Below, one piece after another: positions 36,087-57,908 of a DNA stretch of 64,000 nt. Source of the DNA: Sphingomonas naasensis. Its GTDB lineage: Bacteria; Pseudomonadota; Alphaproteobacteria; Sphingomonadales; Sphingomonadaceae. A program made the translations under genes and the position numbers. Within the stretch, counting starts at the first letter, position 1, and each line of letters begins with the position of its first letter. Where the stretch lies: the NCBI RefSeq assembly GCF_004792695.1, contig NZ_SRXU01000005.1:62001-126000 (forward strand), written 5' to 3'. The notes beneath the pieces are model-generated. The model did not search any database, was not told the origin of the DNA, and saw only the letters and a list, made by a program, of their open reading frames with translations.

Positions 36087-36179
36087 TGGCGGAGACGGAG
36101 GGATTCGAACCCTCGGTAGGAGTAATCCCCCTACGGCGGTTTAGCAAACCGCTGGTTTCAGCCACTCACCCACGTCTCC
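36087..36179 (-). tRNA. tRNA-Ser (anticodon GCU)
   Basis: On the minus strand the acceptor GGAGACG (36179-36173) pairs with CGTCTCC (36097-36091); discriminator G and an encoded CCA end the gene at 36087. The anticodon stem GCGGT/ACCGC encloses the loop TTGCTAA with anticodon GCT; a long variable arm (GTAGG...CCTAC) and the T-arm GAGGGTTCGAATCCCTC confirm the serine class. Decodes AGC/AGU. No attachment-site repeat or integrase is nearby. Confidence 0.95.
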
Positions 36180-39972: not shown

Positions 39973-40069
39973 GGTTGCGCGCGTCGATCCCGCCGGGAAA
40001 CCTGCTCCCCACCTGGATTCTAGGAACGTGCGCTGGCCGCGAAGGATGCAGTCTTCGCCGGGAGCGAAT

Positions 40070-43616: not shown

Positions 43617-44120
43617 TCAACCGCTCTCGATCAACCCGTGCGTGCGTAATGCTTCCAGCACCGAAACAATCACGGCCCGCGCTTCGGCATCAACCGTCGT
43701 GCCTCCCGCTGGTTCCGCGATCGGATCACCGCGCGAGCCAACCACTTGGTCTCCCTCGACAAATAATTTTCCATGGGTCTCGCCGACGCGCCATGCGCCG
43801 GCGATGAAGCGCGCAACCCCTTGCGCAGCGCCCAACCAGAATTGCGCGCCTTCGCGCGGCGACACGAACTGCCAGCCCGAGCTGGTCCAGCCGGCAACGG
43901 CATGGGCGTGCCCCGCCCATTCGTCGGTCGGAGCGGCCCCGACGATCCAGCAATCGCCAGCTTCGGGCGCCTCCGGAGGAACGTTGGTGCCCGCGGCGAC
44001 TGCGGCGGGCTGGACGTTCATGTCGAGCAACGCGAGCGCCGCATTGTGGAACATCTCCTTCTGCGCCTGGCCGGGCTGGAGTAGCGGGAACAAGAGCCGC
44101 GGCGTCGCGGTATCGGTCAT
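43617..44120 (-). CDS. DUF2793 protein, putative GTA tail fibre or receptor-binding accessory
   Basis: A 167-residue protein matching DUF2793 (LLQPGQAQKEMFHNAALALLDM, PPEAPEAGDCWIVG, WQFVSPREGAQFWLG), a domain often found with phage and GTA tail genes. It is the last gene of the GTA cluster; its ATG shares one base with the gp15 stop (TGATG). Likely forms part of the fibre or baseplate periphery, but this is inferred from position and family distribution. Confidence 0.8.
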   Translation of the reverse strand: MTDTATPRLLFPLLQPGQAQKEMFHNAALALLDMNVQPAAVAAGTNVPPEAPEAGDCWIVGAAPTDEWAGHAHAVAGWTSSGWQFVSPREGAQFWLGAAQGVARFIAGAWRVGETHGKLFVEGDQVVGSRGDPIAEPAGGTTVDAEARAVIVSVLEALRTHGLIESG

Positions 44121-46282
44121 CAGTCTTCTCCCGAAGTCGAAAGGCTCAGCGAAGCGGGTGCGGACAAGCCCTGCGCGCCGATCTGGCGGACGCGGATCGT
44201 CGTCACCGCCGGGCGCTCCTCGGCCGTGAGCGAAATCCGCGCCGTGTCCGTCTCGACGATCCGCGCGGCGCCTTCCGCCAGCACGAGCGTCACCTGATAG
44301 CGTTCGAATTCCTCGGAGAGCGGCACATCGACGCCGTCGATCCAGTCCCATCCGCCCCTGCTGCGGCGCACCCAGTCGACATCGGCGCCGCCGTCCGCAC
44401 GTTCCGCCGAACGAAGATGCACGGGCGAAGGGGGGACGACCGAGAGCCCGGAGACTTCGGTCTCGGCCATTTGTGCTTCGCCCAGACCCTGCGCGAACAC
44501 GCGAACGCTGCGCCCCACCACCGTGGCCGGAAGGTCGCGCGTCACGAGCGCGCCCGCGTCGAGCAACACAAAGCGGTCGCCGGTCGCCTGTGTGGCGATC
44601 GCCGCTTCGGTGCCGCGTCGGCCACGCCAAAGGCCATCGAGCGTCCACCGTCTCTCGCCCAACGGAGTCGCTCGCGCGAATTGCAGCAACTCGTCGCCGA
44701 CCATCGCGAGATTGGCCCCGGCGGCCATCGCGGCGGGATCGGCGTCGTGGAGCACCATGGCGCCGTTCGCGAGTTCGACGACGAGGTGGTTCCGGCGATC
44801 CTCAAGATGGCTCGGCGCGGCGCCGGGCGGAGTCACCACCGTCCCGAGGATCGCGGGCGGCGCCGTGCCGCCGATCGGCGACCAGCTCGCGCCATCGTCC
44901 TCGCTCAGCAGCAGCGCGGCGCTTCGCCAGCCGGGGCCGGTCCCCGCCGCGGCGATGGCGAGACGCGGCACGCTGACCGGCGCGCCGAGCGGCGGCAGCT
45001 CGAAGATGTGGAGCGCCGTCTCGCCCGCGGGGAGGTCCGGCGTCGACAATACCCGCCCGCCGCTTGCCCCGGTGATCAGCATGCCCGGCGCCACGGCGAC
45101 GCATTCGAGCAGCAGCACCATCCCTTCGAGCCGCCACTGATCGACGCGCCAGATCCCCGCGGCCCCCGCGATCGTCACCCGTTCGCCCGGACGTATGCTC
45201 AGCAATCGCCACGGCAGCGCCAGCGTGCGGCGTTCGCGCTCGATGTCGAGCCGCTGCAATATGGTCTCGGCGAGCGCCTTGGCGCTCGCGGCGTCGATCG
45301 CCGCCGCGAGCTCGACGCGCGACTCGCGCTGTCCCGCGCCTGGGCGCGTGGCGCGCTGAATGCCGGCCTGATAGTCGCGCGCCGGCTCGTAGTAAGCGAG
45401 CGTCACCGTCTGCGGCGCCGAATCCGCCGCGGCGATGTCCCGGCGTCGGCGCACGCCCCGCTCCGCGCCAGCGCCCGCATCGTCGAGCGCCCGCGCGGCG
45501 CCGTCGCGCGCCCCGAGCAAGGTCAACTTACCGACTTCCGCGCGAAACCAGCCCCCCGCCGCGCCGGCCAGCGTCTCGAGAACCGCGCGCACCGACGCAC
45601 CCGACGCCGCAAAGCCCATCAGCGGCACCATCGCTTCCGGCGTGTCGAGCAAATCTCCCGCGATCTCCCGCGCGATCGCATCGGCGGTTTGCGGCCCGGC
45701 ATCGCCGATCACCTCGAAGGTCAGCGACGGGATGCGATTGCCGAAATCGCCGAGCGCGAGATCCTCGAACACCGCATAGGCGATCCCGCGGTGCGCAGGA
45801 GTCGCGATCGTCCCCTCGATCGACGCGATCAGCGGGTCGGGCGCCTGATCCTCCGACCCGACATGCAGACGGAATCCGGTCCGCGCCTTGAAGTCGCCCG
45901 CGGCGCCGCGCAGCAGCTTGCCATCGGCCCAGATCCGCCCCACGCCCAGGATCGGGCGGGCGGAAAGCGCCACCGCGAATGACGCCGTATAGCTATATTC
46001 GGTCGTCGACGGCTTGCCCTTGCCGCCGCCCCGGCTGGTACGATGCTCGATCAGATCTGTCGCCCAGATCACCGAGCCCGCGACGCGCATCGTTCCGAAT
46101 ATCCGGGGGATCTGCGTGCCGTAGGACGAGGTCTGCACGCGCAGTTCGGTCAGTCGCGGTCCTTCGCGGCCCTTCGGCCGCAGGATCGCATGATCGATCG
46201 CGTTCCCCGCCAACCCCCCCACCGCGCCGCCGATCGGACCCCCGATCAGGCTGCCGGCGACCATCAGTACCACCGTCGCCAT
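44120..46282 (-). CDS. GTA baseplate/tail hub megaprotein, gp15 homologue
   Basis: A 720-residue protein. N-terminus MATVVLMVAGSLIGGPIGGAVGG, then IFGTMRVAGSVIWATDLIEHR, TTEYSYTASFAVAL and VGRIWADGKLLRG match the start of RcGTA gp15. The phage-tail_3 region follows (DLLDTPEAMVPLMGF, WRLLSIRPGERVTIAG). RcGTA gp15 is about 1300 residues because of an internal TIM-barrel (GTA_TIM) domain; here the sequence passes directly from IPSLTFEVIGDAG into the tail_3 region, so that insert is missing. Ends in a fibronectin-like segment. Confidence 0.88.
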   Translation of the reverse strand: MATVVLMVAGSLIGGPIGGAVGGLAGNAIDHAILRPKGREGPRLTELRVQTSSYGTQIPRIFGTMRVAGSVIWATDLIEHRTSRGGGKGKPSTTEYSYTASFAVALSARPILGVGRIWADGKLLRGAAGDFKARTGFRLHVGSEDQAPDPLIASIEGTIATPAHRGIAYAVFEDLALGDFGNRIPSLTFEVIGDAGPQTADAIAREIAGDLLDTPEAMVPLMGFAASGASVRAVLETLAGAAGGWFRAEVGKLTLLGARDGAARALDDAGAGAERGVRRRRDIAAADSAPQTVTLAYYEPARDYQAGIQRATRPGAGQRESRVELAAAIDAASAKALAETILQRLDIERERRTLALPWRLLSIRPGERVTIAGAAGIWRVDQWRLEGMVLLLECVAVAPGMLITGASGGRVLSTPDLPAGETALHIFELPPLGAPVSVPRLAIAAAGTGPGWRSAALLLSEDDGASWSPIGGTAPPAILGTVVTPPGAAPSHLEDRRNHLVVELANGAMVLHDADPAAMAAGANLAMVGDELLQFARATPLGERRWTLDGLWRGRRGTEAAIATQATGDRFVLLDAGALVTRDLPATVVGRSVRVFAQGLGEAQMAETEVSGLSVVPPSPVHLRSAERADGGADVDWVRRSRGGWDWIDGVDVPLSEEFERYQVTLVLAEGAARIVETDTARISLTAEERPAVTTIRVRQIGAQGLSAPASLSLSTSGED

Positions 46283-46283
46283 C

Positions 46284-46685
46284 TCAGCCTCCTTCCGCCA
46301 GCCGCCAGCGTCCGATCAGCGGCCACGGCACGTCGGGCCGCTCGACCACCCGGCGCAGCATCGCGTCCGCGTGAATGACCCCCGCCTCTGCCTCGATCGC
46401 GAAATGCAGCTGCCCTGGCCCGGCATCGAGCAACAACAGGTCGCCGGGCCGCTGCTCGCGCACGTGCTCGAGCCCCAGCGCCGCCAGCGTCGCGGCGACC
46501 CGCCGGGCATCCCCGCTGCGCAGCGCATAGCCGCTCGGCACGCACCCGGCGAAGCCCTCCGCCTGCAACGCCAGCGCCACCAGCCCGACGCAATCGAGCC
46601 CGCCATGTACATCGCGTCCGTGCAGCCTGAACCTCGCCCCCACCGCGGAACGCGCCGCGGCCACGGCGCGCGCGCCGGGCTTCAT
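46284..46685 (-). CDS. GTA NlpC/P60 cell-wall peptidase, gp14 homologue
   Basis: A 133-residue cysteine peptidase expected to open peptidoglycan during DNA delivery. Catalytic Cys in GGLDCVGLVALAL and His in PGQLHFAIEA are both present; the short length fits the GTA/phage NlpC family (TIGR02219). Starts four bases inside the gp13 end, and precedes gp15 by one base. Confidence 0.9.
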   Translation of the reverse strand: MKPGARAVAAARSAVGARFRLHGRDVHGGLDCVGLVALALQAEGFAGCVPSGYALRSGDARRVAATLAALGLEHVREQRPGDLLLLDAGPGQLHFAIEAEAGVIHADAMLRRVVERPDVPWPLIGRWRLAEGG

Positions 46686-47488
46686 CCGCCCGGGTACCGC
46701 GTCAGCAAGTCGATGCCGGGCAAATAGGGTTCGCCACGAAAATTGGCGGCGTTGCCGAACCGTGCCGCACAGGTCGCGAGGCTCTTGTCACACCCCTCGA
46801 TCAACTCGACCAGCGCCCCGCCGGCGTCGAACCGCGGCGGCCGGCGCAGCGTCACCGTGGAGCCCTCGGATCGCGCGATGGCGTCCTCAAGCCCCGAATT
46901 CGCCCCGCCGAACCAGCGCAGGCGTCCGCCCCCATAGGCATCGGCGGCAGGTTCGGCTCCGTCGAGCGTGAGCGTCGTCCCCAGCACCTCCGTCACCCGC
47001 GCGAACCGTCGCCGCCCGGCCATCGCAACCCGACAGCGCCGATCGCCCAACGCCGCGCGGCATTCGGGCGAGGTCTCCTCAACCACCGGCCGTTCGAGCT
47101 GCGCCGACAGCCCGCGCAACTCGGCGGTCAGCGCACCGTCACGCAGTTCCACCGCGCCGAACGTCCCGGCACCCAGCGCCACCGTCTCGCCGGGCGCCGA
47201 CCAGTCGGTCGCGAACAGCGACACGCGCGCGCCGTCCCAGCGTCCTGCGAGCAGATCGGCCTCGGTGATCGCCGCGCTGCTCAGCGCGCCGGTCACGTCC
47301 ATGCTGTCGGCGTCGAGACTCGCGCTCCGGCTGATCGCGCTCGGCGTCATGCCGGGCGCCGCGCGATAGACCAGCCCGTCGATCTCGAGATCATCGTCAT
47401 GCGCGGTGATTCCGATGGTGACGCCGTCGCAGCGCTCGATCCGCCAGCACAGGGTCAACGTGGTGCACTCGCCGTCGAGCCAGCTCAT
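46682..47488 (-). CDS. GTA tail hub protein, DUF2163/BR0599 family (gp13)
   Basis: A 268-residue protein with the DUF2163 N-terminal part (CTTLTLCWRIERCDGVTIGIT, GMTPSAISRSASLDADSMDV) and the BR0599 C-terminal cysteine motif (CRAALGDRRC, CDKSLATCAARF, FRGEPYLPG). In RcGTA the homologue forms the hub between distal tail and megaprotein. It overlaps both neighbours by 4 nt. Confidence 0.92.
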   Translation of the reverse strand: MSWLDGECTTLTLCWRIERCDGVTIGITAHDDDLEIDGLVYRAAPGMTPSAISRSASLDADSMDVTGALSSAAITEADLLAGRWDGARVSLFATDWSAPGETVALGAGTFGAVELRDGALTAELRGLSAQLERPVVEETSPECRAALGDRRCRVAMAGRRRFARVTEVLGTTLTLDGAEPAADAYGGGRLRWFGGANSGLEDAIARSEGSTVTLRRPPRFDAGGALVELIEGCDKSLATCAARFGNAANFRGEPYLPGIDLLTRYPGG

Positions 47489-49737
47489 TCGCGCACCTCC
47501 ACCAACGGCACCGAGGCTGCCAGCCCTGCCAGATAGGTGGCCCGGCTGACGCTCAGCCGGTCCTCGGCGAAACGCACGGGCACGTCGAACGCGAAGCTCG
47601 CTGTCACCACCGCTCCCGCCGCGGGCGGCACGTCGAAGATCACGGACCCGCCGGGCTCGAGCGCGAAGCCGGCGATCTCCATGCCGTCGACCGCGATGCG
47701 CACGCTGTCTTCCACCGGTCGCGTGATCCGACGCACGACGCCGCCATAGCGCTTGATCAGTTGAAACCGCGCCTCGAGATCGTCGCCGATTCCGAGCACG
47801 ACGTCGTCGCCTTGATGATCGAACGGATCGCGCAGGCGGAATCCCCGCGCGGGCCCCATCCGCGCGCGGAAGAAGCCGATCAGCGCGGTGATATCGGCTT
47901 CGGATCGCACCCCCGGCCCAACATCATAGCGTAGTCGCGCCTCGGCCCATTCGGCGTTGCGGTTCTCGCGCCCGCCGGCGCTGGTCACGATCGCCGTCGA
48001 GACTTCGGGCGCCACTTCGGCCTCGCGGCCCAGCGCGATCGGGAACAGCACGTCGTCGAACGCGTCCAATTCTTCCTCCTGATCGAAATGCACGAAGCCG
48101 TCGCGCAGCACCTGCGGCAGCGCCCAGATAAAGGTCTCCGCGACGCCGCGCCGGCGCGACAGGGCGGCGGCGGCCGCGATCGGCTGCCATTGGGCCTTGT
48201 CTTCGGGACGGAGCACGAAGCCTGCGAGATAGTGCTGATCCGCCGCGCCATAGCCGAGCCGCGCCTCCGCCAGCGCCACGCCCTTCGCGCTCGCCGCCGA
48301 ATTGCCCGCGGTGACCCAGTCATAATCCTCGAGCTGGAGCACATCGAAGGCCGGCGCCGCCCAGCCGAGCGGCAGGTTGGCGCGCTGGAGCCCGGGCATG
48401 GCGCGATCGAGCACGGTGGGCAGATAGGCGAGCAGCAGCACCTCGGCGCCCGGTGTCCAGCGCACCACATCGCGCAACGCCAGCGTCGATGCCGCGAGCA
48501 ACGCCCCTGCGGCATCGAGCACCGCCGGATCGACCGTTCCACGCAGATTCTGCTCCGGCGGATCGCCGAGCGCGAGCGTCGCGGCCGCGTCATGGATGCA
48601 TAGCCTTCCGTCGGCCATCACCCACCACCAAGGCTCGCCGATCTGGAACCGGATCGCGAGCCCCGCCGCCTGGGCGATGCCGACGAACGCCAGCGCCACC
48701 ACACGCAGATAGTACATCGCCCCGTCATGCGCGGGCGAGAGCAGCGCCGAGGGCGGGCTCCATCCGGTAAGTCCAGGCGATCCGTCAGCGGCGCGCTGCT
48801 TCCAGTCGTTCCAGCAATGCTGGTCGAGCAATTCGTAGGAGAGCGACCAGATCAGGTCATAGCCGAGCGTCTTGGCGCGCTGCGCGAAATCGCCATGCCA
48901 CGCCGCGCACGCCACGTTGAGCGTTCCCGCGGCGAGGCTGACATAATAGCCGCCCGAATTGGGCTCGAGCCGGAAATAATGGCTCATCCCCACATAGTGG
49001 AGGATGCTGCCGCGATAGCCGAGGTGCAGCGCGTTGCGCAGCACCCGCGCCGGCGTCAGATGATAGCAATCGTCATAGCCATTGGCGATCTGCAACCCGT
49101 GCTGGGGCACGACGGCGGCGCCGATCACCAGCACCGAGCCCGGCCCCTCGCAGACCATGTCGCTGATCTCGACCCACGCCTCGATCGGCGCAGCCAGCGG
49201 CGCGTCCGCACCTGAATAACCCTGCGGCACCAGCGATACGAACATTCGGTCGATATCGCCCGCGAAGACCGGGTCGGCCTCGTCCGGCAGCATGAAGCCG
49301 CCCTCGACCTGCGCGAAGTCGATCGCCACCGTCGCATCCTCGGGGGTGCCGCTGGCATAGTTCCACAACCGCACATACCAGGCCCGCGGATCGCCCGCCG
49401 CGTCGCGTCCCTCGAGCGTCAGCACCGGGCCATTGACCGCGTCGAGCGCCAGAACCCCGGATGATCGCCAGCGAAAGCGCAGCCGACAGCCGCGGAAATC
49501 GCGACTGGTCTCGTACGCCAGCAGCACATGATCGTGCCGGTCCTCGGCTTCCCAGATCAGGCCGGCAAGGTCGTCCTGCCGGAAGAAGACCGCATCGACG
49601 CGCAGCGCGTCGGGCGCGGTGGTGATCACCGACGCCATCATCGGCCGCGGGAAGTTGACCGTCCAGTAAGCAGGATCGAAGCGCGACAACACGCCCTCGG
49701 CCTGCCCCTGACGCGCCGAAGCCAGCCAATGTCCCAT
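47485..49737 (-). CDS. GTA distal tail protein gp12 (DUF2460) with a long N-terminal extension
   Basis: A 750-residue protein. Only the last ~190 residues, from about 558, form the DUF2460/TIGR02217 distal tail domain (NAEWAEARLRYDVGPGVRS, LIGFFRARMGPARGFRLRDP). The preceding ~555 residues are extra: a beta-rich first part (residues about 15-190) and an alpha/beta region with GYRGSILHYVGMSHYF, LIWSLSYELLD, AGLAIRFQIGEPWWW and EVLLLAYLP that reads like a TIM-barrel or glycosidase-type fold. RcGTA gp12 is only about 200 residues. An annotation as non-contractile tail sheath is conceivable; I cannot test it. Confidence 0.8.
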   Translation of the reverse strand: MGHWLASARQGQAEGVLSRFDPAYWTVNFPRPMMASVITTAPDALRVDAVFFRQDDLAGLIWEAEDRHDHVLLAYETSRDFRGCRLRFRWRSSGVLALDAVNGPVLTLEGRDAAGDPRAWYVRLWNYASGTPEDATVAIDFAQVEGGFMLPDEADPVFAGDIDRMFVSLVPQGYSGADAPLAAPIEAWVEISDMVCEGPGSVLVIGAAVVPQHGLQIANGYDDCYHLTPARVLRNALHLGYRGSILHYVGMSHYFRLEPNSGGYYVSLAAGTLNVACAAWHGDFAQRAKTLGYDLIWSLSYELLDQHCWNDWKQRAADGSPGLTGWSPPSALLSPAHDGAMYYLRVVALAFVGIAQAAGLAIRFQIGEPWWWVMADGRLCIHDAAATLALGDPPEQNLRGTVDPAVLDAAGALLAASTLALRDVVRWTPGAEVLLLAYLPTVLDRAMPGLQRANLPLGWAAPAFDVLQLEDYDWVTAGNSAASAKGVALAEARLGYGAADQHYLAGFVLRPEDKAQWQPIAAAAALSRRRGVAETFIWALPQVLRDGFVHFDQEEELDAFDDVLFPIALGREAEVAPEVSTAIVTSAGGRENRNAEWAEARLRYDVGPGVRSEADITALIGFFRARMGPARGFRLRDPFDHQGDDVVLGIGDDLEARFQLIKRYGGVVRRITRPVEDSVRIAVDGMEIAGFALEPGGSVIFDVPPAAGAVVTASFAFDVPVRFAEDRLSVSRATYLAGLAASVPLVEVRE

Positions 49738-49788
49738 GGCAGATCCCCCTCATTAAGGCGCAGCAGCGTCCACCAGCTTGGCAGGGCG

Positions 49789-50367
49789 CTAGTCGACCCC
49801 CGCCAGCGCCGCCTTCACCGCGCGCGCGACTTGCCGGCTCGATTGCGCCAGCGCCCGCGGCGCCTCGCCCGCGCCGGCATTCACAGTGATCGCCACGCGC
49901 ACCTCGCGCGGTCCCGCCGCCACCGGCGCCGCGATGCTCCCCGCGGCCGCAGGCACGAACAGCTCGGGTCCGCGCTCGCCCACCCAATAGGGTCGCAGCG
50001 GGCTGACCGGGCCGCCGGTCGCGCGTCCCGGCGATCCGCCGAACAACGCCAGCATGACCCCGCCCAGCCCGCCGCCTGCACCGCCGCCACTGCCCGCGTC
50101 GCCGCCGATCAGCGCGGCGATGCCCTGCCGCAACGCCGCTGCCGCGATCTCGTCGAGCACGGTCAGGGCCATCCGGCGCAGATCCTCGAACCCCAGCTTG
50201 CCGGTCCGCACCGCACGCAGCAGCGCGCTCTCGATCGCGCGCCCGGCACGCTCGGCGCCCGCCGCCAGCGGCCCATCGATCTGGCCGCGCATCTCGGCAA
50301 CATCGCGCGCAAAGCCCCGGGTATCGGCGCGCACGTCGATGATCATGCGTTCGATCTCTTCATCCAT
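49789..50367 (-). CDS. GTA tape measure protein, short (gp11)
   Basis: A 192-residue tail protein: helical N-terminal part (VRADTRGFARDVAEMRGQIDG, AIESALLRAVRTGKLGFEDLRRM), a Gly-rich centre and the RATGGPVSPLRPYWVGERGPELFVP motif typical of tape measures. It is among the shortest tape measures, comparable with RcGTA. The ATG at 50365-50367 overlaps the chaperone gene end by 8 nt. Confidence 0.88.
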   Translation of the reverse strand: MDEEIERMIIDVRADTRGFARDVAEMRGQIDGPLAAGAERAGRAIESALLRAVRTGKLGFEDLRRMALTVLDEIAAAALRQGIAALIGGDAGSGGGAGGGLGGVMLALFGGSPGRATGGPVSPLRPYWVGERGPELFVPAAAGSIAAPVAAGPREVRVAITVNAGAGEAPRALAQSSRQVARAVKAALAGVD

Positions 50368-50560
50368 CGGGGAAAAGCTCCTTGAGCCGCGCAATCTCCA
50401 CAGGGTCCGGCGGCGCCTCGGCTTCGCCCGCCACCGCCCGCACCAGCGCGCCGAGCTCCGCCGGCGTGGCGCGCCAGAAAGTCTCCGGGGTCCAGCCGAA
50501 GAGAAGCCCCGCCAGCCCGGCCAGTCGCACGGCTGCGCCGCAAAATTGCGCGCTATCCAT
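50360..50560 (-). CDS. GTA tail assembly chaperone, second frame (gp10.1, rcc01693-like)
   Basis: A 66-residue protein with the signature FGWTPETFWRATPAELGAL of the rcc01693/TIGR02216 family. In tailed phages paired small genes before the tape measure act as tail chaperones; in GTAs the two are separate rather than frameshifted. Start and upstream stop share one base (TGATG). Confidence 0.88.
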   Translation of the reverse strand: MDSAQFCGAAVRLAGLAGLLFGWTPETFWRATPAELGALVRAVAGEAEAPPDPVEIARLKELFPDG

Positions 50561-50871
50561 CACCGCCCCGCCAGAATCTGCCCGAGCAATATCTTCAGCG
50601 CCGGCGTGCTCGCCGCCAGTCCCTGCGCGGCGATCGCTTCGCCGAAATCGTCGCGGCTCAGCCCCGCCGGCCGGTCGCGCAGGCAATGCCAGAACAGCGC
50701 GACCATCTCGCCCAGTGCCAGCCGCCCGTCGGCGGCGCGCTCGACCAGCGCGAACAACGGTCCCAATTCGCCCTCGGCGGCGACCAGCGCCGCGAAGCTG
50801 GGCCGCAGCACCAGCGTCTCGCCCGCGAGAGACAGCGACGCCTCGCCGCGCGCCGGATTCGCCCCGCTCAT
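50560..50871 (-). CDS. GTA tail assembly chaperone (gp10, DUF3356-like)
   Basis: A 103-residue protein resembling the gene transfer agent family protein between tail tube and tape measure (ANPARGEASLSLAGETLVLRPSF split at residue 20; PALKILLGQIL). Mostly helical. Overlaps the tail tube gene by 4 nt. Function inferred from position. Confidence 0.85.
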   Translation of the reverse strand: MSGANPARGEASLSLAGETLVLRPSFAALVAAEGELGPLFALVERAADGRLALGEMVALFWHCLRDRPAGLSRDDFGEAIAAQGLAASTPALKILLGQILAGR

Positions 50872-51275
50872 GCCGATACCACCGGCCCCGAGCTCTCCAG
50901 GCTCAGCGTGTAGCTGCGCTCGCCGTTGAAATCGCCGGCATAGTCGAGCCGCGTGACGAGGAAGCGTCCGGTCATCGTCTCGCCGCTCTCGAAGCTCAGC
51001 CGGTAATCGTCGATCGTGCCGGCAAGCGCGTTTGCCTTCACCCGGTTCTCGGCCGCCGATCCGGTGAACACCCCGGCGCCCGAGACGCTCACCGATCGCA
51101 CCCCGCCGCCCGTCAGCAATTCGCGCCAGCCGCCCGAATCCTTCGAAGTGATCACCACCGCTTCGCCATTGATGCTGAGCTGCGTCGTGCGCAGCCCGGC
51201 CACTGTGGTGAAGCTCGCCGGCGATCCGCCATTCCCGACCTTGAGCAGGAACGCACTGCCCTTCTCCGCCGCCAT
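50868..51275 (-). CDS. GTA major tail tube protein (gp9, TP901-1 family)
   Basis: A 135-residue beta-rich protein: AEKGSAFLLKVGNG, TVAGLRTTQLSINGEAV, DSGGWRELLTGGGVRSVSVSG and DYAGDFNGERSYTLSLESSG are typical of TP901-1 tail tube subunits. The polymer forms the tail lumen. AGGAGAG precedes the ATG; 10 nt separate it from gp8, so this highly needed protein has an independent ribosome site. Confidence 0.92.
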   Translation of the reverse strand: MAAEKGSAFLLKVGNGGSPASFTTVAGLRTTQLSINGEAVVITSKDSGGWRELLTGGGVRSVSVSGAGVFTGSAAENRVKANALAGTIDDYRLSFESGETMTGRFLVTRLDYAGDFNGERSYTLSLESSGPVVSA

Positions 51276-51285
51276 AATCTCTCTC

Positions 51286-51687
51286 CTAATTTGCCTGCAG
51301 CACGCGCACGCGGAACTCGATGATCGCGGCGGTCCGCGCCTCGCCCTCCCGCACGACCCGGCTGCGCACGAAGTCGAGGCTGACGATCCGCCAACCCTCG
51401 CCGAGATCGCGCGGCACCGCGGCCAGCGCCGCGCTGACTTCGCCCGTGAGGGCGCGCAGCCTGCTGGTGCGCTCACCGAGATCGAACAGCGCGATCGTCA
51501 GCCTGCCCTCGCGCCCCGCCATGTCCTTGGTGCTCCAGTCGGTCAGCACCGCCTCTTCGACCACCGCATAGGGCCGCACCGCGCGCGCCGGCGGCGCGTC
51601 GAACACGCCGTTGATCGCCACGCCCAGCGGCGCGTGCGTGCGCAATGCCTGCGCCAGCGCCGTGGCGAGTACTTCGTGCAAGCTCAT
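51286..51687 (-). CDS. GTA tail terminator (gp8, DUF3168)
   Basis: A 133-residue protein with the DUF3168 pattern (SLHEVLATALAQALRTHAPL, RPYAVVEEA, WSTKDMAGREGRLTIALFD). In RcGTA the homologue caps the tail where it meets the head. ATG 51685-51687 is chosen over GTG 51696 because GGGAGG lies at a proper distance. ATGA overlap with the gene before it. Confidence 0.9.
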   Translation of the reverse strand: MSLHEVLATALAQALRTHAPLGVAINGVFDAPPARAVRPYAVVEEAVLTDWSTKDMAGREGRLTIALFDLGERTSRLRALTGEVSAALAAVPRDLGEGWRIVSLDFVRSRVVREGEARTAAIIEFRVRVLQAN

Positions 51688-51905
51688 CGCAGCCACCCTC
51701 CCGGCCAGCGGAGCACAGGGTCACGCAGCCAACGCCGCCACAGCCCGCGCCCCGAAATCACCACCCGCCCCGCCCCGGCCTCGGCCTCGGCCTCGACGGC
51801 AAGACCCGGCAAGGCGGCGCGCGCGGCCTCGCCGAGCCGCAGCGTCGCCCGTGCCACTGCGCGCGCGCCGGCCAGCCGGGCGCGCGCCTCGAGCTTGCCG
51901 CTCAT
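51684..51905 (-). CDS. Small GTA head-tail connector protein (gp7-like)
   Basis: A 73-residue Arg/Ala-rich protein (GKLEARARLAGARAVARATL, GRGLWRRWLRDPVLRW). In RcGTA the stopper protein gp7 occupies this exact place between adaptor and terminator; sequence similarity is weak by eye so the assignment is positional. Overlaps both neighbours by 4 nt. Confidence 0.7.
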   Translation of the reverse strand: MSGKLEARARLAGARAVARATLRLGEAARAALPGLAVEAEAEAGAGRVVISGRGLWRRWLRDPVLRWPGGWLR

Positions 51906-52456
51906 GCCGATCGCCGCGCGATGTTGAGCCGCATCCGACGGAATGGCCGCCACAACGCCGCCACCGCGGCGGGCGGCGTGCCGCCGTTGGCGCGCGCCTC
52001 GAACAGATGCGCGGCGAGCAGCACCACTCCCTGCATCAGCGGCGCCGGCAGGCCCGACCAGTCCCCCGCCAGCCCCGCGGCATAACCGATCCGGATCCGC
52101 CCCGCCGCGATCGCCGCGCTGCCGCGCACCCAGCCTTCGCCGGCGGCGTCGATATCGATGCCATAGGTCTCGGGTGGCAGCGCGTAGCCGGTGCCCGAAG
52201 CGCCCAGCCCCTCGACCGCGTCGATCGTCGTCACCGGCGCGGCGGGAAGCCGCTGCCACGCGCCATGCGCCGGCAGCACCTCGCTCCACGCGCGCACGAT
52301 CAGCGCCTGGCCGGTGAATGCCTCGCACAGCGCGAGCGCCGTTGCGGCATGCGTCTCGAGCAGCGCGTCCTCCGCCGCTCCCGTTATCCGCAGATGAAGC
52401 CTGACGGCATCGCGCGCGGCCGCGATCGCCGCCGCCGGAAAGGGCGGAGCAAGCAT
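51902..52456 (-). CDS. GTA head-tail adaptor (gp6)
   Basis: A 184-residue connector of the phage gp6/HK97 type: AAIAAARDAVRLHLRITGAAEDALLE, FTGQALIVRAWSE and a C-terminal RPFRRMRLN segment. Adaptors form a 12-mer below the portal. AAGAGGAG precedes the ATG. A 56-bp gap holding a perfect hairpin separates it from the capsid gene. Confidence 0.88.
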   Translation of the reverse strand: MLAPPFPAAAIAAARDAVRLHLRITGAAEDALLETHAATALALCEAFTGQALIVRAWSEVLPAHGAWQRLPAAPVTTIDAVEGLGASGTGYALPPETYGIDIDAAGEGWVRGSAAIAAGRIRIGYAAGLAGDWSGLPAPLMQGVVLLAAHLFEARANGGTPPAAVAALWRPFRRMRLNIARRSA

Positions 52457-52480
52457 CCCAATCTCCTCTTTCGAAAGGCT

Positions 52481-52504
52481 CCCCTCCCTGCGCGCAGGGA
52501 GGGG
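52481..52504. repeat. 24-bp perfect palindrome between capsid and adaptor genes
   Basis: CCCCTCCCTGCG followed immediately by its reverse complement CGCAGGGAGGGG. On the minus strand it lies 8 nt after the capsid stop codon and 24 nt before the adaptor start. No U-tract follows, so it is more likely an mRNA-stabilising or partially terminating hairpin than a full terminator. Confidence 0.6.
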
Positions 52505-52512
52505 AAACAGGG

Positions 52513-53571
52513 TCAGGAAGCCGCGAACTTGAGCAGCTTGATCGCCTCGGAGTTGCTCACCATGCCGCCGACCCGCTTGGTCGCGTAGAAGTGCACGAAG
52601 GGCTTGTTGCTGTACGGATCGCGCAACACCTGCGTCTCGCCGCGCTCGGCGATCAGATAGCCGGCCTTGAAGTTGCCGAACGCGATCGACAGGCTGTTGG
52701 CCGCGATGTCGGGCATGTCCTCGGCCTCGACCACCGGATAGCCGAGCAGGGTCGCCGGCTGGCCGGCGGCAAGCGCGGGCTGCCAGAGGAATGCGCCGTC
52801 GCTGGTCTTGAACTTGCGGATCCGCGCCAGCGTCGCCGAGTTCATCACCCAGCTCGCCCCCTGCCGATAGGGCGCGCGCAGGCTCTGGACAAGGTCGATC
52901 AGCTTCTCGTCGGGATTGGCCGCGAACGCCCCCGCCGCGCCGCTCGCCAGATATTGCAGCGTCCCGAAGGCCCGCGTCGCATCGCTCGTCGTGGCGGTCG
53001 GCACGGCGAGGAAGCCTTTGGGCTTGTTGACGCCATTGCCCCCGACGAACGCTGCGCCCTCGGCCACGGCGAACTCGCGCGCCACTTCCGCCGCCAGCCA
53101 TTGCTCGACGTCGAACATCGCGTCGTCGAGCATCGCCTGGCTCGCCGCCGGGTTGGCATAGAGATCGCCCATCGGCGGCGCGACTTCGTTGAACACCGGC
53201 GTGTCGGTCTCGGGGCGTGCCACGGTCTCGGCCGCCCAGCCGCTCTCGAAACCGCCGCTGGTCACCAGCTTGCGATAGCCGCTCGATCCGACCTTCACGA
53301 CATTGGCGATGCCGCGGATCGGCGAAACCGCCTTCAGCGTCGCGTCGATCCGGCTGTCGATCTCCTCGGGCACCGCATAGCCACCTGCGGCGTCGCTCGC
53401 GCCCGACAGCGCCTTCATCTCGAAGCCGCCGCTCCCCGAGCGCAGAAAGCCTTCGAACGCCGCGCTGCCGAGCGGCCGCCCGCCCGCCAGCATCGGCCGC
53501 GCCGGGGGCAGCCCCGCCGTCTCCATTGCCTCGAAGCTCGCCTCGAGCGCGTCGGTCACCACATCGTCCAT
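52513..53571 (-). CDS. GTA major capsid protein, HK97 family (gp5)
   Basis: A 352-residue HK97-fold capsid protein. GGYAVPEEIDSRIDATLKAVSPIRGIA split near residue 75 marks the mature N-terminus; SGWAAETVARPETDTPVFNEV, GNGVNKPKGFL, WVMNSATLARIRKFKTSDG and FYATKRVGGMV are family hallmarks. It is shorter than many phage capsid proteins because the N-terminal scaffolding part is brief. Preceded and followed by hairpin-containing gaps. Confidence 0.95.
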   Translation of the reverse strand: MDDVVTDALEASFEAMETAGLPPARPMLAGGRPLGSAAFEGFLRSGSGGFEMKALSGASDAAGGYAVPEEIDSRIDATLKAVSPIRGIANVVKVGSSGYRKLVTSGGFESGWAAETVARPETDTPVFNEVAPPMGDLYANPAASQAMLDDAMFDVEQWLAAEVAREFAVAEGAAFVGGNGVNKPKGFLAVPTATTSDATRAFGTLQYLASGAAGAFAANPDEKLIDLVQSLRAPYRQGASWVMNSATLARIRKFKTSDGAFLWQPALAAGQPATLLGYPVVEAEDMPDIAANSLSIAFGNFKAGYLIAERGETQVLRDPYSNKPFVHFYATKRVGGMVSNSEAIKLLKFAAS

Positions 53572-53594
53572 GTCCGTCTCCCACAGTAAAGAAA

Positions 53595-53618
53595 CCCTCC
53601 TTCCGAAACGGGGAGGGG
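53595..53618. repeat. G/C-rich imperfect hairpin between protease and capsid genes
   Basis: CCCTCC TTCCG AAA CGGGGAGGGG folds into a bulged stem of the same style as the palindrome at 52481. It lies 24 nt upstream of the capsid start codon on the minus strand; sequences of this kind are dispersed in sphingomonad intergenic DNA, so it may be a mobile or REP-like unit. Confidence 0.45.
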
Positions 53619-53664
53619 AACCGCACAGCGCGCGGGGGTGGAGGCTCGCCCGAGGGCAGCCAGG

Positions 53665-54039
53665 TCAGTCGGCAGCCACGGCGTGCACCCGCGCCAGCGG
53701 TTGCATCGGGCTCGCCACGAGGCTGATCTCGAGCAGCTGCAATCCCTTGATCTCGCGATGCGGCCCGGCCTCGGCTTCGGTCACCCGATAGCCGAACGAC
53801 AGCCCCGTCACCGCGCCCCGGGCGACCGCGGCGGCAAGCTGCGGCTCTTCGACCCGCGCGACCACGCGCAACCCGCGCCGGTCGGCCGCCAGCCGTTCGA
53901 CCGTGCCGATCGGCTTGCCGCCATGCTGCCAGAGCAACGGCACCGCGCTGACCCGTCCGAACGCCCCGCGTCGAACCACGTCGCCGCCGCGGTCGGGCAC
54001 GTCGAACACCGCCACATAGCCGGCGAAGCGCACGCTCAT
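53665..54039 (-). CDS. GTA prohead protease, HK97 family (gp4)
   Basis: A 124-residue S78-type serine protease: FAGYVAVFDVPDRGGDVVRRGAF at the N-terminus, catalytic His in LLWQHGGKPIGT and Ser in ITGLSFGYRV-type sequence (here VTGLSFGYRV), LLEISLVASPM near the end. It matures the capsid protein encoded next. ATGA overlap with DUF6127. Confidence 0.93.
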   Translation of the reverse strand: MSVRFAGYVAVFDVPDRGGDVVRRGAFGRVSAVPLLWQHGGKPIGTVERLAADRRGLRVVARVEEPQLAAAVARGAVTGLSFGYRVTEAEAGPHREIKGLQLLEISLVASPMQPLARVHAVAAD

Positions 54040-54344
54040 TTCAGCCAGCCCGGAAACCCGAGCTTGACCGCCAGCCCGACCAGCAGCAGCGCAGCCGCCA
54101 TCCGTCCGGCCCAGGAAAAGGCCGCCTTGAGCGCCGAGCGCTTGGCGTCGCGCCACGCCCCCAGCAACTCGCGCAGCTCGGCCATGTCCTTCGCCGCGCC
54201 GACGTCCTCGAGCCCCAGACGCGCCAGCGCGCGCTGCGCGCTCGCCTCGCCCGCCTCCTCGGCTATCGCCCGAAGCGTCGCCATGTCGGCGCCGTCCTCT
54301 TTCGCCTGCTCGATCAGTTGCGCAAGCAGCGCTTCGTTACGCAT
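54036..54344 (-). CDS. DUF6127 protein of GTA cluster
   Basis: A 102-residue protein with a helical charged N-terminal part (LLAQLIEQAKEDGADMATLRAI) and one C-terminal membrane helix (AAALLLVGLAVKLGF). DUF6127 is found between portal and protease in sphingomonad GTA clusters; in RcGTA the slot is gp3.5. Function unknown; the membrane helix suggests it anchors proheads or acts in assembly rather than in the particle. Confidence 0.78.
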   Translation of the reverse strand: MRNEALLAQLIEQAKEDGADMATLRAIAEEAGEASAQRALARLGLEDVGAAKDMAELRELLGAWRDAKRSALKAAFSWAGRMAAALLLVGLAVKLGFPGWLK

Positions 54345-54389
54345 GTCACTCTCCCGATTGCCCGGCCGCCCGCTCCGGCCTAGGCAGCG

Positions 54390-54566
54390 ATGATGCCCCG
54401 TTGGCTCTTCCCTCTGCTGGTCACGTTGATCGTCGCGCGCGCCGCGCTGCTCGTCTGGGCCTGGTCGACCGATGCCGTCCTCAGGGCAAAATGCGGCAAT
54501 GTCGGTGGAAACTGGGATAGCGGGACGCGCCGTTGCGCGCTCGTGGTCACACCAGCCCGACCATAG
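54390..54566 (+). CDS. Small putative secreted or membrane protein antisense within the GTA cluster
   Basis: A 58-residue ORF starting at ATG 54390 (second ATG 54393) with an N-terminal hydrophobic segment (WLFPLLVTLIVARAALLVWAW) and then a C-x3-GG-x-W-x6-C motif (KCGNVGGNWDSGTRRC), a pattern common in small periplasmic proteins. It fills the only 202-bp gap in the GTA operon and overlaps the portal 3' end by 20 nt on the other strand. No good ribosome site. It may be real; the alternative is chance. Confidence 0.45.
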   Translation: MMPRWLFPLLVTLIVARAALLVWAWSTDAVLRAKCGNVGGNWDSGTRRCALVVTPARP

Positions 54567-55656
54567 CCCGCTTCTCTTCGTCGCTCAGAAAATCCGCCGC
54601 GCTCACCTGACGCCAAAGCCGCTCGCGATCCTCGGCCAGAGCGGTCACGCGATCGAGATCGACCGCCAGCGACGCGCCCTCGAACCAGCCGCGCAACGCC
54701 TGTGCGAGCCCCGCGAGGATCGTGTCCGCCACCGGCAGGATCGCGAGCCGCCACAGCGCGCGATTGGCTTCGCGGTAGTTGGCATAGGCAGTGTCGCCGG
54801 GCAGCCCGAGCAGCATCGGCGGCACGCCGAAGGCAAGCGCGATCTCGCGCGCCGCCGCGGCCTTCAGCCCCACGAAATCCATGTCGGCCGGCGTCATCCC
54901 CATCGCCTGCCATTTGAGCCCGCCCTCGAGCAGCAGCGGGCGTCCGGCATTGGCCGCGCCGGCAAACCCTGCCTCGAGCTCGTTCTTCACCCGCGCGAAC
55001 TGGTCGGGGCTGAGCACCCCGCCGTCGCCGACGTCGTAGATCAGCGCCCCCGAAGGCCGCGCGGCATTATCGAGCAGCGCCTTGTTCCAGCGTGTCGCGG
55101 CATTGTGGATGGCGATCGCTCCCGCCGCCGCGCCGAGGCAGCCGAGCCCGTAATGGTCGTCGACCGGATTGAACGTCTTGAGCTGGACCACCGCGGGGCG
55201 TCCTCCGGCATCCTCCGCCGCGAGCCGGCTGACGTGCGCCCCCACCCGATAGCGATAGGCGACCGGCCAGCCATTCGCGTCGGGCTCGACCGTCACGCGT
55301 TCGGGTCGAAGCGCGAACAGCTCGCGCACCGCGCCGGCGCTGTCGGTCAAAATCTGTACCCACGCGTTGCCGTGGAGCAGAAGATGCGACGCGATCGTCT
55401 CGATCAGCACCTGCCCGCCCGAACGCGCCGTGGCGAGCGCCACCAGCGTCGGATCGCTCGCCGCGAGCGGCACCGATCCCACGCCTTCGCTCACCAGCTT
55501 GACTGCGCGCTGCGCCACCGGATTATGGCAATAGCCTTCGCGCACCTGCGCCTCGTAGCTGCGCGGCCATTCGCCGAGGCTGGTGATGGTGCCGCCACGC
55601 GCCAGCGCCGGCCGCGCGCGGTCACCCGCGGCGGATTTGCGTCCGAACCACTTCAT
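54547..55656 (-). CDS. GTA portal protein, HK97 family (gp3)
   Basis: A 369-residue portal protein forming the 12-mer DNA gate. WFGRKS at the start, AVKLVSEGVGSVPL, HLLLHGNAWVQIL, LKTFNPVDDHYGLGCLGAA, KWQAMGMTPADMDFVGLK and FGVPPMLLGLPGDTAYANYREANRALWR are strong family signatures. ATG 55654-55656 is used; an in-frame ATG 36 nt upstream exists. Ends within the small plus-strand ORF. Confidence 0.95.
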   Translation of the reverse strand: MKWFGRKSAAGDRARPALARGGTITSLGEWPRSYEAQVREGYCHNPVAQRAVKLVSEGVGSVPLAASDPTLVALATARSGGQVLIETIASHLLLHGNAWVQILTDSAGAVRELFALRPERVTVEPDANGWPVAYRYRVGAHVSRLAAEDAGGRPAVVQLKTFNPVDDHYGLGCLGAAAGAIAIHNAATRWNKALLDNAARPSGALIYDVGDGGVLSPDQFARVKNELEAGFAGAANAGRPLLLEGGLKWQAMGMTPADMDFVGLKAAAAREIALAFGVPPMLLGLPGDTAYANYREANRALWRLAILPVADTILAGLAQALRGWFEGASLAVDLDRVTALAEDRERLWRQVSAADFLSDEEKRAMVGLV

Positions 55657-55741
55657 GCCTGTCTCCCCGATCAGGGTATCGTCCGCCGGCAAACCCCTCC
55701 CGCATCCGGAGAGGCAGGGCAGTATGGTCGACCGCCGCGCC

Positions 55742-56410
55742 TCAGCGCCGCGTCGCGAACCAGATCACGTGCCGCGGCCCTTTGCCGTTGCTGCGCGCCT
55801 TCACGCCGACTTCCTCGACGGCAAACCCCGCCTCGCGCAGCCGCCGCGCGAACGCATTATCGGGCGCCGCGGACCACACCGCCAGCACCCCGCCCGGCCG
55901 CAGGGCTGCCTTCGCCGCCGCCAGGCCGCGCATCGAATAGAGTCCGTCATTGCCCGGCCGGGTGAGCCCGTCGGGTCCATTGTCGACATCGAGCAGGATC
56001 GCGTCATAGCGTCCCTGCCCGCGCGCGATCACCGCGCCGACATCGTCGAGCACCACCGCCACGCGCGGGTCGTCGAGGCATCCCGCCGCCAGCTCCGCCA
56101 TCGGCCCTTTCGCCCAATCGATGATCTTCGGCACCAGCTCGGCGACGGCGATCCGCGCATCCGCGCCCAGCCGCCGCAGCGCCGCACGCAGCGTGAACCC
56201 CATGCCATATCCGCCGATCAGCAGATGCGGCGCCGATAGCGGTAGCCGGTCGATCGTCATGTCGGCCAGCGCTTCCTCGGACCCGCTCATCCGGCTGCTC
56301 ATCAGCTCGTTGCGGTCTAGAACGATCATGAAGTCGCGCCCGCGGCGGAACAGCCGCAGCGGGTCGCCGCCAGGCACTTCCGCCGTATCGATCAATTCGC
56401 GCGGGACCAT
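55742..56410 (-). CDS. Spermidine synthase-like methyltransferase-fold protein in GTA cluster
   Basis: A 222-residue Rossmann protein: HLLIGGYGMGFTLRAALRRLG (ligand loop), AVAELVPKIIDWAKGP, DDPRVAVVLDDVG and YDAILLDVDNGPDG correspond to the SpeE core. It lacks the N-terminal beta-domain of true spermidine synthases. Located between terminase and portal, in the same direction, with 27 nt and 85 nt gaps. Whether it acts on polyamines, packaged DNA or is cargo is unknown. Confidence 0.75.
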   Translation of the reverse strand: MVPRELIDTAEVPGGDPLRLFRRGRDFMIVLDRNELMSSRMSGSEEALADMTIDRLPLSAPHLLIGGYGMGFTLRAALRRLGADARIAVAELVPKIIDWAKGPMAELAAGCLDDPRVAVVLDDVGAVIARGQGRYDAILLDVDNGPDGLTRPGNDGLYSMRGLAAAKAALRPGGVLAVWSAAPDNAFARRLREAGFAVEEVGVKARSNGKGPRHVIWFATRR

Positions 56411-56437
56411 CTTCGCTCCTCGGGTTGCGCGCCTCGC

Positions 56438-57736
56438 CTACAGCAAGGTGACCCGCGCCGCACCCCGTTTGCCCAGCATCAATTCGGTCATCGCCCAGAC
56501 AAGCGCGTCGGCACGGTCGGGCGAGCGGCCCGGGCCCTCATAGCCGCCACCGGCCTGCAACCCGCACAATTCATCCTCGAGCGCGGAGAAGCCGCCGACA
56601 TGCCATGCGCGGCCCGCCTCATAGAGCAGCGCCACCGGCTCGGCGCGCGATACCTTCCCCCGCGTGGCATGGACCAGCGTCACCGGCAGGCCGCTGTCGG
56701 CGCCGCGCAGCACGCTGGCCACCATGTCGCCGCCCTGGTTCTTTTCCGCGACGACGCGCTCGGCGCGATGCCGCGCCGCGCACGCCGCCACGGCGCGCGC
56801 CCAGCCTTCGGGCGATGCGCCGTGCACGCTGGCATCTTCGAGCACATAGCCGCGTCGGTCGCGCCCCAGCCCCACCGCGACGATGCCGCAGGCATCCCCT
56901 CCCGCGCTCGCCGGGGGGTCGACACCGATCACCACCCGCACCAGTTCGGGCGCCGCGCCGATCCGCGCCCGCTCCACCATGTCGCGCGTCCACAGCGCGT
57001 CGGGAACGTCATCGAGCAGCTCGCCATGCAATTCCTGCCGCCCGAGCCGCGTGCCGGCATAAATTCCCATCGCGTCGAAAAACCCCCGGGCAAGGTTGGC
57101 CCGATTGACCATCGTCGCGCCGCAGGTCTTGATCACGCTCGCATCGGCGACCAGCCGTCGCACCAGCGCAACCGGGCGCGGTGTGGTCGTGGCGACCACC
57201 TGGGCCTTGCCCATGCGCAGCGACATCAACAGATTGTCCCACGTATCCTCGCCGTTCGCCCATTTGCCGATCTCGTCGGCCCAGGCGATGTGGTGCTGCG
57301 GCCCGCGGAGCTTGTCTGGCTCGCTTGCCGCGAACACTTCTGCCTGCGCGCCTCCGGGCCATTTCAGCCGCCCGATCGACGGCTCCCAGCTCGGCCGCCG
57401 CTGCCACCCGGCAACCGCCAGCAGTCCGCTCTCGCCTTCGATCATCACCCGCCGCACGTCCTCCTGCGTCGCGCCGACCAGCGCGATCCGCAGCTTCGGA
57501 TTGCGCTCGGCTTGCGCGCGCACCCATTCCGCGCCCATCCGTGTCTTGCCGAACCCGCGTCCGGCCATCACCAGCCAGGCCCGCCATTCTCCCGATGGCG
57601 GTGTCTGGTCGGGACGTCGCCACCATGGCCAGTGCTTCTCCAGCACACGCGCATCGATTTCCGAAAGCCCGGAGATGCAATCGCGCCACCGGGGATCGAG
57701 CGCGGCCTGTTCGGCTTGCGAATACGCCGCGGCCAT
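56438..57736 (-). CDS. GTA large terminase subunit (gp2)
   Basis: A 432-residue packaging motor. Walker A in VMAGRGFGKTRMGAEW, Walker B IAWADE, coupling motif VATTTPRP, and nuclease acidic residues in VIGVDPPAS and EKNQGGDMV. GTA terminases package host DNA by headful cutting. ATG 57734-57736 has GGGAGGGG upstream; an in-frame ATG at 57805 sits at the predicted transcription start and would be leaderless. No small terminase gene is adjacent. Confidence 0.93.
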   Translation of the reverse strand: MAAAYSQAEQAALDPRWRDCISGLSEIDARVLEKHWPWWRRPDQTPPSGEWRAWLVMAGRGFGKTRMGAEWVRAQAERNPKLRIALVGATQEDVRRVMIEGESGLLAVAGWQRRPSWEPSIGRLKWPGGAQAEVFAASEPDKLRGPQHHIAWADEIGKWANGEDTWDNLLMSLRMGKAQVVATTTPRPVALVRRLVADASVIKTCGATMVNRANLARGFFDAMGIYAGTRLGRQELHGELLDDVPDALWTRDMVERARIGAAPELVRVVIGVDPPASAGGDACGIVAVGLGRDRRGYVLEDASVHGASPEGWARAVAACAARHRAERVVAEKNQGGDMVASVLRGADSGLPVTLVHATRGKVSRAEPVALLYEAGRAWHVGGFSALEDELCGLQAGGGYEGPGRSPDRADALVWAMTELMLGKRGAARVTLL

Positions 57737-57811
57737 GGCCCCTCCCGAACGTCGAAGCGGACTGCCGCCGCACACCGAAGTGCCCGACTCGCAGTTCTTC
57801 AGCATTCCTGA

Positions 57812-57840
57812 TTAGTGCCACATCAGCGTTGCGCTGTCAA
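57812..57840 (-). promoter_or_regulatory. Candidate promoter of the GTA operon
   Basis: On the minus strand TTGACA (57840-57835), 17 nt, then CACTAA (57817-57812; ACTAAT with an 18-nt spacer). This gives transcription from about 57805, 69 nt before the preferred terminase start. No TTAA-N7-TTAA CtrA box was seen in the gap. Confidence 0.5.
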
Positions 57841-57908
57841 GAACAAATTACCTATATGGTTCGTTTTGATTTCTGCATATCGCCTCGATTGCGCGGCGCC
57901 CGGCTTCC

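Follow-up and report, generated by a model that had tools for sequence, protein, structure and literature searches.

Can a gene transfer agent (GTA) cluster that looks complete to the eye still fill its particles with DNA? The question is raised by a locus of Sphingomonas naasensis at 43617-57736, on the minus strand of the 64,000-nt window, that is, the whole stretch of DNA analyzed (C15:62001-126000 of a draft genome of 4.34 Mb in 19 contigs). We read the locus as a sphingomonad GTA that has long been under selection, has lost its small terminase gene (TerS), and, unless an orphan TerS from elsewhere takes over, is probably deficient in packaging, with a probability of roughly 55% for this reading as a whole. 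Whether packaging is deficient in the strain as it stands today is, taken by itself, an even call.

The locus is an operon of the head-tail type known from the GTA of Rhodobacter capsulatus (RcGTA), in its sphingomonad form. The initial annotation, made from the sequence alone, had described an unbroken minus-strand series of genes from the large terminase terL to a DUF2793 gene, and this was borne out by the open reading frames, all of them intact, and by Pfam/NCBIfam families; of the catalytic motifs it had reported, those of TerL (GRGFGKT and IAWADE) and gp14 (a DC and an H) are likewise visible by eye. Comparison with RcGTA proteins, which it had proposed, gave matches to PDB chains for the capsid (6tb9, E 7.7e-89), portal (6te8, E 7.1e-97), distal tail (E 1e-35), and megatron (E 1.6e-49). 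The cluster is homologous to and collinear with RcGTA g2-g15 (PDB 6TBA, 6TB9, 6TE8), with g7 and g14 assigned by position or weak match only and with one foreign gene inserted. The description of the cluster as collinear, in the order "known from RcGTA", was not confirmed as it stood: the shared genes keep that order from terL to g15, but an extra 222-amino-acid gene between terL and the portal gene (55742-56410) had been overlooked. GTAs in Sphingomonadales are already known (PMC9765227, PMC9836097), and the locus is almost certainly one of this RcGTA-like kind.

That it is a defective prophage instead is hardly credible. Its structural genes do descend from phage, but no integrase or replication family was matched by nine flanking frames scanned against Pfam (three of them without a match above cut-off, one of which, 39193-40012, is probably a wrong frame), nor by the OmpA or DUF418 genes. 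No integrase, replication, or excision module was found in the nearest flanks, which are part of the window, and the integrase, replication, and lysis genes of an active prophage were likewise missing from these flanks, att sites not having been searched. The host locus is common across species. An OmpA-family gene (42373-43506, minus strand; PF00691 and synteny) is the frequent 3' neighbor of sphingomonad GTAs and recurs there in many species, and a DUF418 gene lies upstream in five of the nine upstream flanks fetched from relatives. The GTA-type families GTA-gp10, Rcc01698_C, and TIGR02218 are also present, and the genome encodes a single DUF6456 protein above cut-off (C14:131449-131838, E 1.5e-41), a marker only for a GafA-type activator, the link between the two being taken from PMC9638019. 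The preference for a GTA over a prophage in the initial annotation is thus supported, as is, for the flanking frames scanned, its statement that no integrase or replication gene lies nearby. Its use of the missing small terminase as a further mark of a GTA was mistaken, since gp1 of RcGTA is a small terminase reported as essential for transfer (PMC6854486) and nearly all related loci carry one.

The description of the cluster as complete-looking and intact fails at this same gene. A profile search found a TerS homolog immediately before terL in 88 of 91 distinct terL loci, a count in which 34 of the loci found had themselves gone into making the profile, one locus (L067, the second terL of genome G138) is probably prophage and not GTA, and two further loci were left out as ending too close to terL. 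A set of 80 named relatives, mostly labeled Sphingomonas, was fetched by g12 as the best of 276 confirmed candidates. The three loci missed by the profile were the window, L120, and L171. In the window no match was found anywhere in the 64 kb, and the small terminase g1/TerS expected upstream of terL in an RcGTA-like GTA is missing from this position. Upstream of terL, the sequence of L171 extends for only 736 bases, which leaves its lack of TerS uncertain; L120 (Sphingomonas sp. GC_Shp_5) has 3151 bases there, without TerS and without the promoter described below. Absence of TerS from the locus is very probably real. It is a lesion and not a hallmark of GTAs, and we file the locus as a TerS-less variant of the RcGTA-like family instead of a complete GTA, its descent being carried by the remaining genes.

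The sequence in front of terL retains what precedes TerS elsewhere. In many relatives, alignment shows a promoter (AACCNNATNGG, about 10 nt, TTGACA, 17 nt, and a -10 box) and a leader (GAACGCTGAAGAATTGCGAGTCGGG) ahead of TerS, although the promoter patterns missed some loci and the conservation is to be taken as examples, not as a rate. The window retains both on the minus strand (57783-57861): the promoter (AACCATATAGG, 10 nt, TTGACA, a 17-nt spacer, and a -10-like box) at 57811-57861 and the presumably transcribed leader (GGAATGCTGAAGAACTGCGAGTCGGG) at 57783-57810. The leader passes directly into terL, and the site of the missing gene (57737-57782, minus strand) is occupied in aligned clade-mates by a TerS of about 410-520 nt. 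A clean deletion would be the simplest account, and since no other gene shows decay, the loss was probably recent. Genome G350 (Sphingomonas sp. DG1-23), which shares the terL allele of the window, retains its TerS. An assembly error as the sole cause of the missing TerS is very unlikely: the genome is a draft in 19 contigs, but the site lies at 119.8 kb of a 355-kb contig, distant from its ends, and promoter, leader, and terL follow one another without a break, each of them well formed. Across the genome, the promoter pattern gave one exact match and one with a single mismatch, against one match for the backwards control. The GTA of Caulobacter crescentus (CcGTA) is reported to resemble this arrangement in having a promoter before its terminase gene and a conserved element between -35 and -10, where a putative GafZ site is placed (PMC11150451), but the sequence of this element differs from the predicted sphingomonad one. 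Promoter and leader are strongly conserved where seen in sphingomonad GTAs, and so is the spacer that separates -35 from -10, often as GTCACGCTGAT. One relative (L100:10006 and 13193, in genome G189) has a copy of the promoter about 3 kb upstream of its leader and TerS, and an insertion appears to lie between promoter and leader.

If this is correct, the promoter-proximal TerS gene would have been lost by a clean deletion that left promoter, leader, and the other structural genes in place. A GafA-like activator would induce the operon, so that heads and tails would still be made, with a distal tail ring bearing an N4-type sheath and TIM-barrel module that may serve in receptor or glycan binding. 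Because there is no TerS to load TerL onto host DNA, packaging and gene transfer would most likely be lost or strongly reduced. In RcGTA, deletion of g1 (TerS) is reported to leave no detectable gene transfer (PMC6854486).

The upstream protein of the relatives is a phage small terminase by profile and by its position directly 5' of terL. It measures about 135-205 amino acids (starts chosen by eye), and all three representatives tested matched PHROG 4044, terminase small subunit (E 4.9e-14, 1.5e-9, and 1.3e-8), while two of seven gave matches to Pfam Sf6_terminase, only below cut-off (6.8e-4 and 0.027). An AlphaFold model of one (mean pLDDT 73.8) places short helices at residues 56-69, 72-79, and 83-92 in its confident part. 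Sphingomonad GTAs seem to retain a TerS with a helix-turn-helix-like unit, whereas none was found in RcGTA gp1 according to PMC6854486; the GTA TerS proteins tabulated there are 92-125 amino acids long and include no sphingomonad. In the open-licence literature searched, we found nothing on a helix-turn-helix TerS of sphingomonad GTAs, on the g12 fusion described below, or on TerS-less GTA loci.

A functional GTA would be retained if an orphan TerS-like protein loaded TerL in trans, which we consider unlikely, though not negligibly so. The main candidate (C14:405483-406091) lies on another contig and matches PHROG 4044 (E 9.6e-26) as well as the GTA TerS alignment (C14:405501-405995, E 1.1e-18), of which it covers positions 10-159 of 165; a second, at C11:167329-167508, matches the alignment at E 9.9e-12 and PHROG 4044 at E 4.5e-8. 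The search with the terL of the window found no second terL in the genome, and the remaining GTA genes are all open and constrained. Against this, matches to the C14 protein occur in at least 55 of 61 genus genomes, this one included, often several per genome and some of them GTA-linked TerS, and its best relative outside the genome is 51% identical among the matches listed. Being so widespread and so distant from its best outside match, the C14 protein need not be a replacement, and C14 has no match to the GTA promoter. Substitution in trans is possible and has no positive support. Small-terminase-like genes are scattered in many genus genomes, many of them away from the GTA (for example L184:9484-10092 and C11:167329 here), and a single genome (G101) has as many as 16 matches. 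TerL might also start alone on broken host DNA, with no TerS of any kind. According to PMC6854486, T4 TerL needs no TerS to package linear DNA in vitro, and the terL of the window is constrained (dN/dS 0.25 in comparison with G350). This is nevertheless quite improbable, as TerS is described in the same source as essential in vivo, RcGTA requires gp1, and TerS is so widely retained beside terL.

Several points weigh against a packaging-deficient GTA. The loss may be tolerated, L120 also having terL without TerS, and some GTAs may be able to do without the gene. The C14 protein might act in trans. The best PDB hit of the TerS model in Foldseek, Sf6 TerS, was not significant (E 0.53). The end branches of the terL tree are 0.20 for the window and 0.21 for G350, and a terL that is not accelerated relative to G350, with no broken frame, is what would be expected if the locus still works.

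The terminase itself may have a history separate from that of the rest of the operon. The gene (56438-57736; PF17289 5.8e-24, PF03237 3.8e-17) is an allele shared with G350, with an identity of 78%, against 64-67% to most clade-mates and 65-68% to the nearest rows from other genera. Portal proteins group the window with its clade-mates (support 1.0), and capsids do likewise, less firmly. The terL tree, which like the approximately unbiased (AU) test was made under LG+G4 and not a mixture model, groups the window and G350 with other genera (100/99) and five mates in a clade of their own (100/100); G269 is likewise separate from the remaining mates. A joint clade remained acceptable under the AU test (p 0.123 for eight rows, 0.125 for seven), and identity to other genera does no more than equal that to most mates; an exchange of terminase genes before the loss of TerS is therefore likely and not proven. 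For GTA terminases in general, P282 and C292 are given as typical TerL residues (PMC7947584). A further explanation, to which we assign an outside chance, is that the lineage took its terminase from another genus and became a GTA that packages without a cognate TerS, by TerL alone or by a recruited orphan TerS, sphingomonad GTAs otherwise loading DNA through a phage-like helix-turn-helix TerS unlike that of RcGTA. If true, packaging without a cognate TerS would be a natural step toward sequence-independent packaging.

Selection has maintained this chromosomal GTA head-tail operon over the long term. Over 2988 codons of the structural genes, a set without terL, g7, and the methyltransferase-like gene, dN/dS on the branch leading to the window (omega) was 0.200, within the range of 0.162-0.249 in eight clade-mates and close to the 0.213 of the OmpA control gene on the same branch. 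Purifying selection is seen both there and in pairs, where NG86 means per gene against seven clade-mates were 0.07-0.57 (g9 left out). No lineage-specific relaxation was seen in the pooled structural genes; g8 and the methyltransferase-like gene gave noisy branch values (129 and 169 codons). The dN/dS measurement that the initial annotation had called for thus agrees with it in showing purifying selection. Its conclusion that the locus is still in use goes further than the data for the time after TerS was lost, because the branch is long (dS 0.32) and omega does not tell of selection since then.

Decay in relatives, which the initial annotation had named as evidence against its view, is found in part. 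Several congeners have large internal deletions in the GTA cluster, and the capsid gene of G350 (L078, L103) has an in-frame stop near residue 112, being otherwise 92% identical in a well-kept cluster. Among 83 distinct loci with matches to terL, portal, and DUF2793, 68 contain every one of the 16 other query pieces, counted at 55% of length, and 15 are incomplete, four of these lacking one piece only; g12 is present in 221 of 295 genus genomes. GTA function has thus often been lost among the relatives of this strain, and a recent loss of TerS would be unsurprising. Other genera of the family have seven relic GTA operons that retain TerS, an N-terminal piece of TerL ending near residue 137-151 and including Walker A, and a truncated DUF2793 gene, the rest being deleted; OmpA is retained in six of the seven. 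A GPQHSHA-type junction common to six of the seven suggests one old deletion.

On the origin of random-DNA packaging in GTAs, one idea is that the RcGTA TerS lost its DNA-binding domain (PMC6854486, PMC7947584). With what looks like a natural TerS deletion in which all else is in place, and with a helix-turn-helix-like TerS apparently kept in relatives, both the origin of such packaging and this idea become testable. The locus is also a warning that a GTA operon complete to the eye can be without its packaging starter, and this strain may be a natural knockout instead of a complete working system.

The tail genes depart from RcGTA in two places where plain "distal tail" and gp15 labels had been given. 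The g12 product (47485-49737) has 750 amino acids, compared with 210 in RcGTA, and is a fusion of a phage N4-type tail-sheath domain NCTSP_N (residues 18-206; PF23844 2.5e-97), a non-contractile-sheath TIM barrel (211-548; PF23845 6.6e-158), and a DUF2460 distal tail domain (561-749; PF09343 2e-63). Its sequence matches both N4 and RcGTA chains in the PDB. Most of residues 1-550 are modeled with confidence. A fold search of the PDB with this model ranked phage N4 tail proteins first (E 5e-19), with a distal tail protein of phage R4C at rank 6 and glycoside hydrolases next. The N-terminal 550 amino acids resemble N4 gp65 and gp64 (PDB 9LC0, 9YF5) in sequence and fold, but these are separate proteins in N4, whereas here they are joined in a single chain to a distal tail protein of siphovirus type. 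That g12 may have a receptor role is suggested by reports that N4 gp65 is recognized together with NfrA (PMC12892993, PMC5862860). Of 99 family genomes, 66 encode the TIM-barrel family, as do 3 of 190 drawn across the class (this genome, one congener, and one from another family).

The g15 megatron (44120-46282) has 720 amino acids in comparison with 1304 in RcGTA, and aligns to RcGTA residues 1-212 and 793-1259; residues 213-792, about 580 amino acids, are absent. As the peripheral domain of RcGTA g15 is placed at 230-744 (PMC7296036), most of it is therefore missing. In sets of loci largely gathered with g12, and so biased to intact clusters, the g12 fusion is a single open frame in 105 of 106 distinct loci holding both halves, and g15 is collinear with that of the window over more than 650 of its 720 amino acids in 101 loci. 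In its operon, OmpA neighbor, fused g12, and collinear g15, the locus is like published sphingomonad GTA clusters (PMC9765227, PMC9836097), from which it differs in lacking TerS, in a terL allele that groups with other genera, and in a methyltransferase-like insertion found only in a subset. A phage record (MT840053.1, "Bacteriophage sp.", 5.4 kb) encodes a 66% relative of g12, and a locus titled Arthrobacter sp. TPD3018 (L134) carries a sphingomonad-type GTA; both may be mislabeled sphingomonad DNA.

The remaining head and tail genes, all on the minus strand as are those above, are assigned as follows. The portal gene g3 (54547-55656; PF04860 2.2e-67) is followed by a DUF6127 gene (54036-54344; PF19622 1.7e-25), the S78 prohead protease g4 (53665-54039; PF04586 8e-18), and the HK97 major capsid gene g5 (52513-53571; PF05065 1.4e-86). 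After the head-tail adaptor g6 (51902-52456; TIGR02215 1e-21, phrog_442 2.2e-21), a short protein in the g7 locus (51684-51905) has no family match, is present in clade-mates, and is a candidate head completion protein; a replacement in this locus has been described (PMC9765227). The tail terminator g8 (51286-51687; PF11367 2.4e-16) precedes g9 (50868-51275), the tail assembly chaperone g10 (50560-50871; PF11836 4.8e-23), and a second chaperone g10.1 (50360-50560; PF09550 3.1e-10). Its position and conservation mark g9 as the putative tail tube gene, and a relative has a match to it. The tape measure g11 (49789-50367) matches PF09718 below cut-off (1.5e-4), phrog_30701 of unknown function (1.3e-61), and the tape measure family phrog_8892 (8e-11). 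The baseplate hub g13 (46682-47488; PF09931 1e-51, TIGR02218 2e-61) is followed by the NlpC/P60-like peptidase g14 (46284-46685), placed by position and a match to TIGR02219 of 0.0017 (18.8 bits, cut-off 81.9). The DUF2793 protein (43617-44117, start approximate; PF10983 2.9e-23) has two tail-fiber PHROG matches (3.3e-9 and 7.9e-7) besides unknown-function families, and because of the former may be a fiber or fiber anchor.

The gene between terL and portal (55742-56410) encodes a protein like S-adenosylmethionine-dependent methyltransferases, with a spermine-synthase-type domain (PF01564 2.1e-8; 34.4 bits, cut-off 22.9). It is spermidine-synthase-like and falls outside the curated SpeE equivalogs, to which it scored 26.9-41.8 bits with cut-offs of 249.55-472. 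A match is present in 77 of the 99 genomes of the family and in 58 of the 61 of the genus, in most relatives elsewhere in the chromosome. It lies less than 2 kb from terL in 12 of 61 evenly drawn genus genomes (counted by eye). Among 93 distinct loci with terL and portal close together, 23 have it between the two, in a set partly chosen for this insertion, so that this figure is not a rate; a chance insertion unique to this strain is rejected on these occurrences. Six loci with a decayed GTA still have the gene at nearly its full length, so it would be a host gene carried in the operon and not a GTA part. In genome G138 (L068/L095), portal-to-tail genes follow the methyltransferase-like gene with no terL before it, and g8 is truncated.

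A tRNA-Ser predicted at 51985-52073 falls within the g6 coding frame and is almost certainly spurious; another was predicted at 36087-36179. In six relatives with otherwise well-kept clusters, the gap between the capsid gene and g6 holds an extra 1.8-2.6 kb, approximately.

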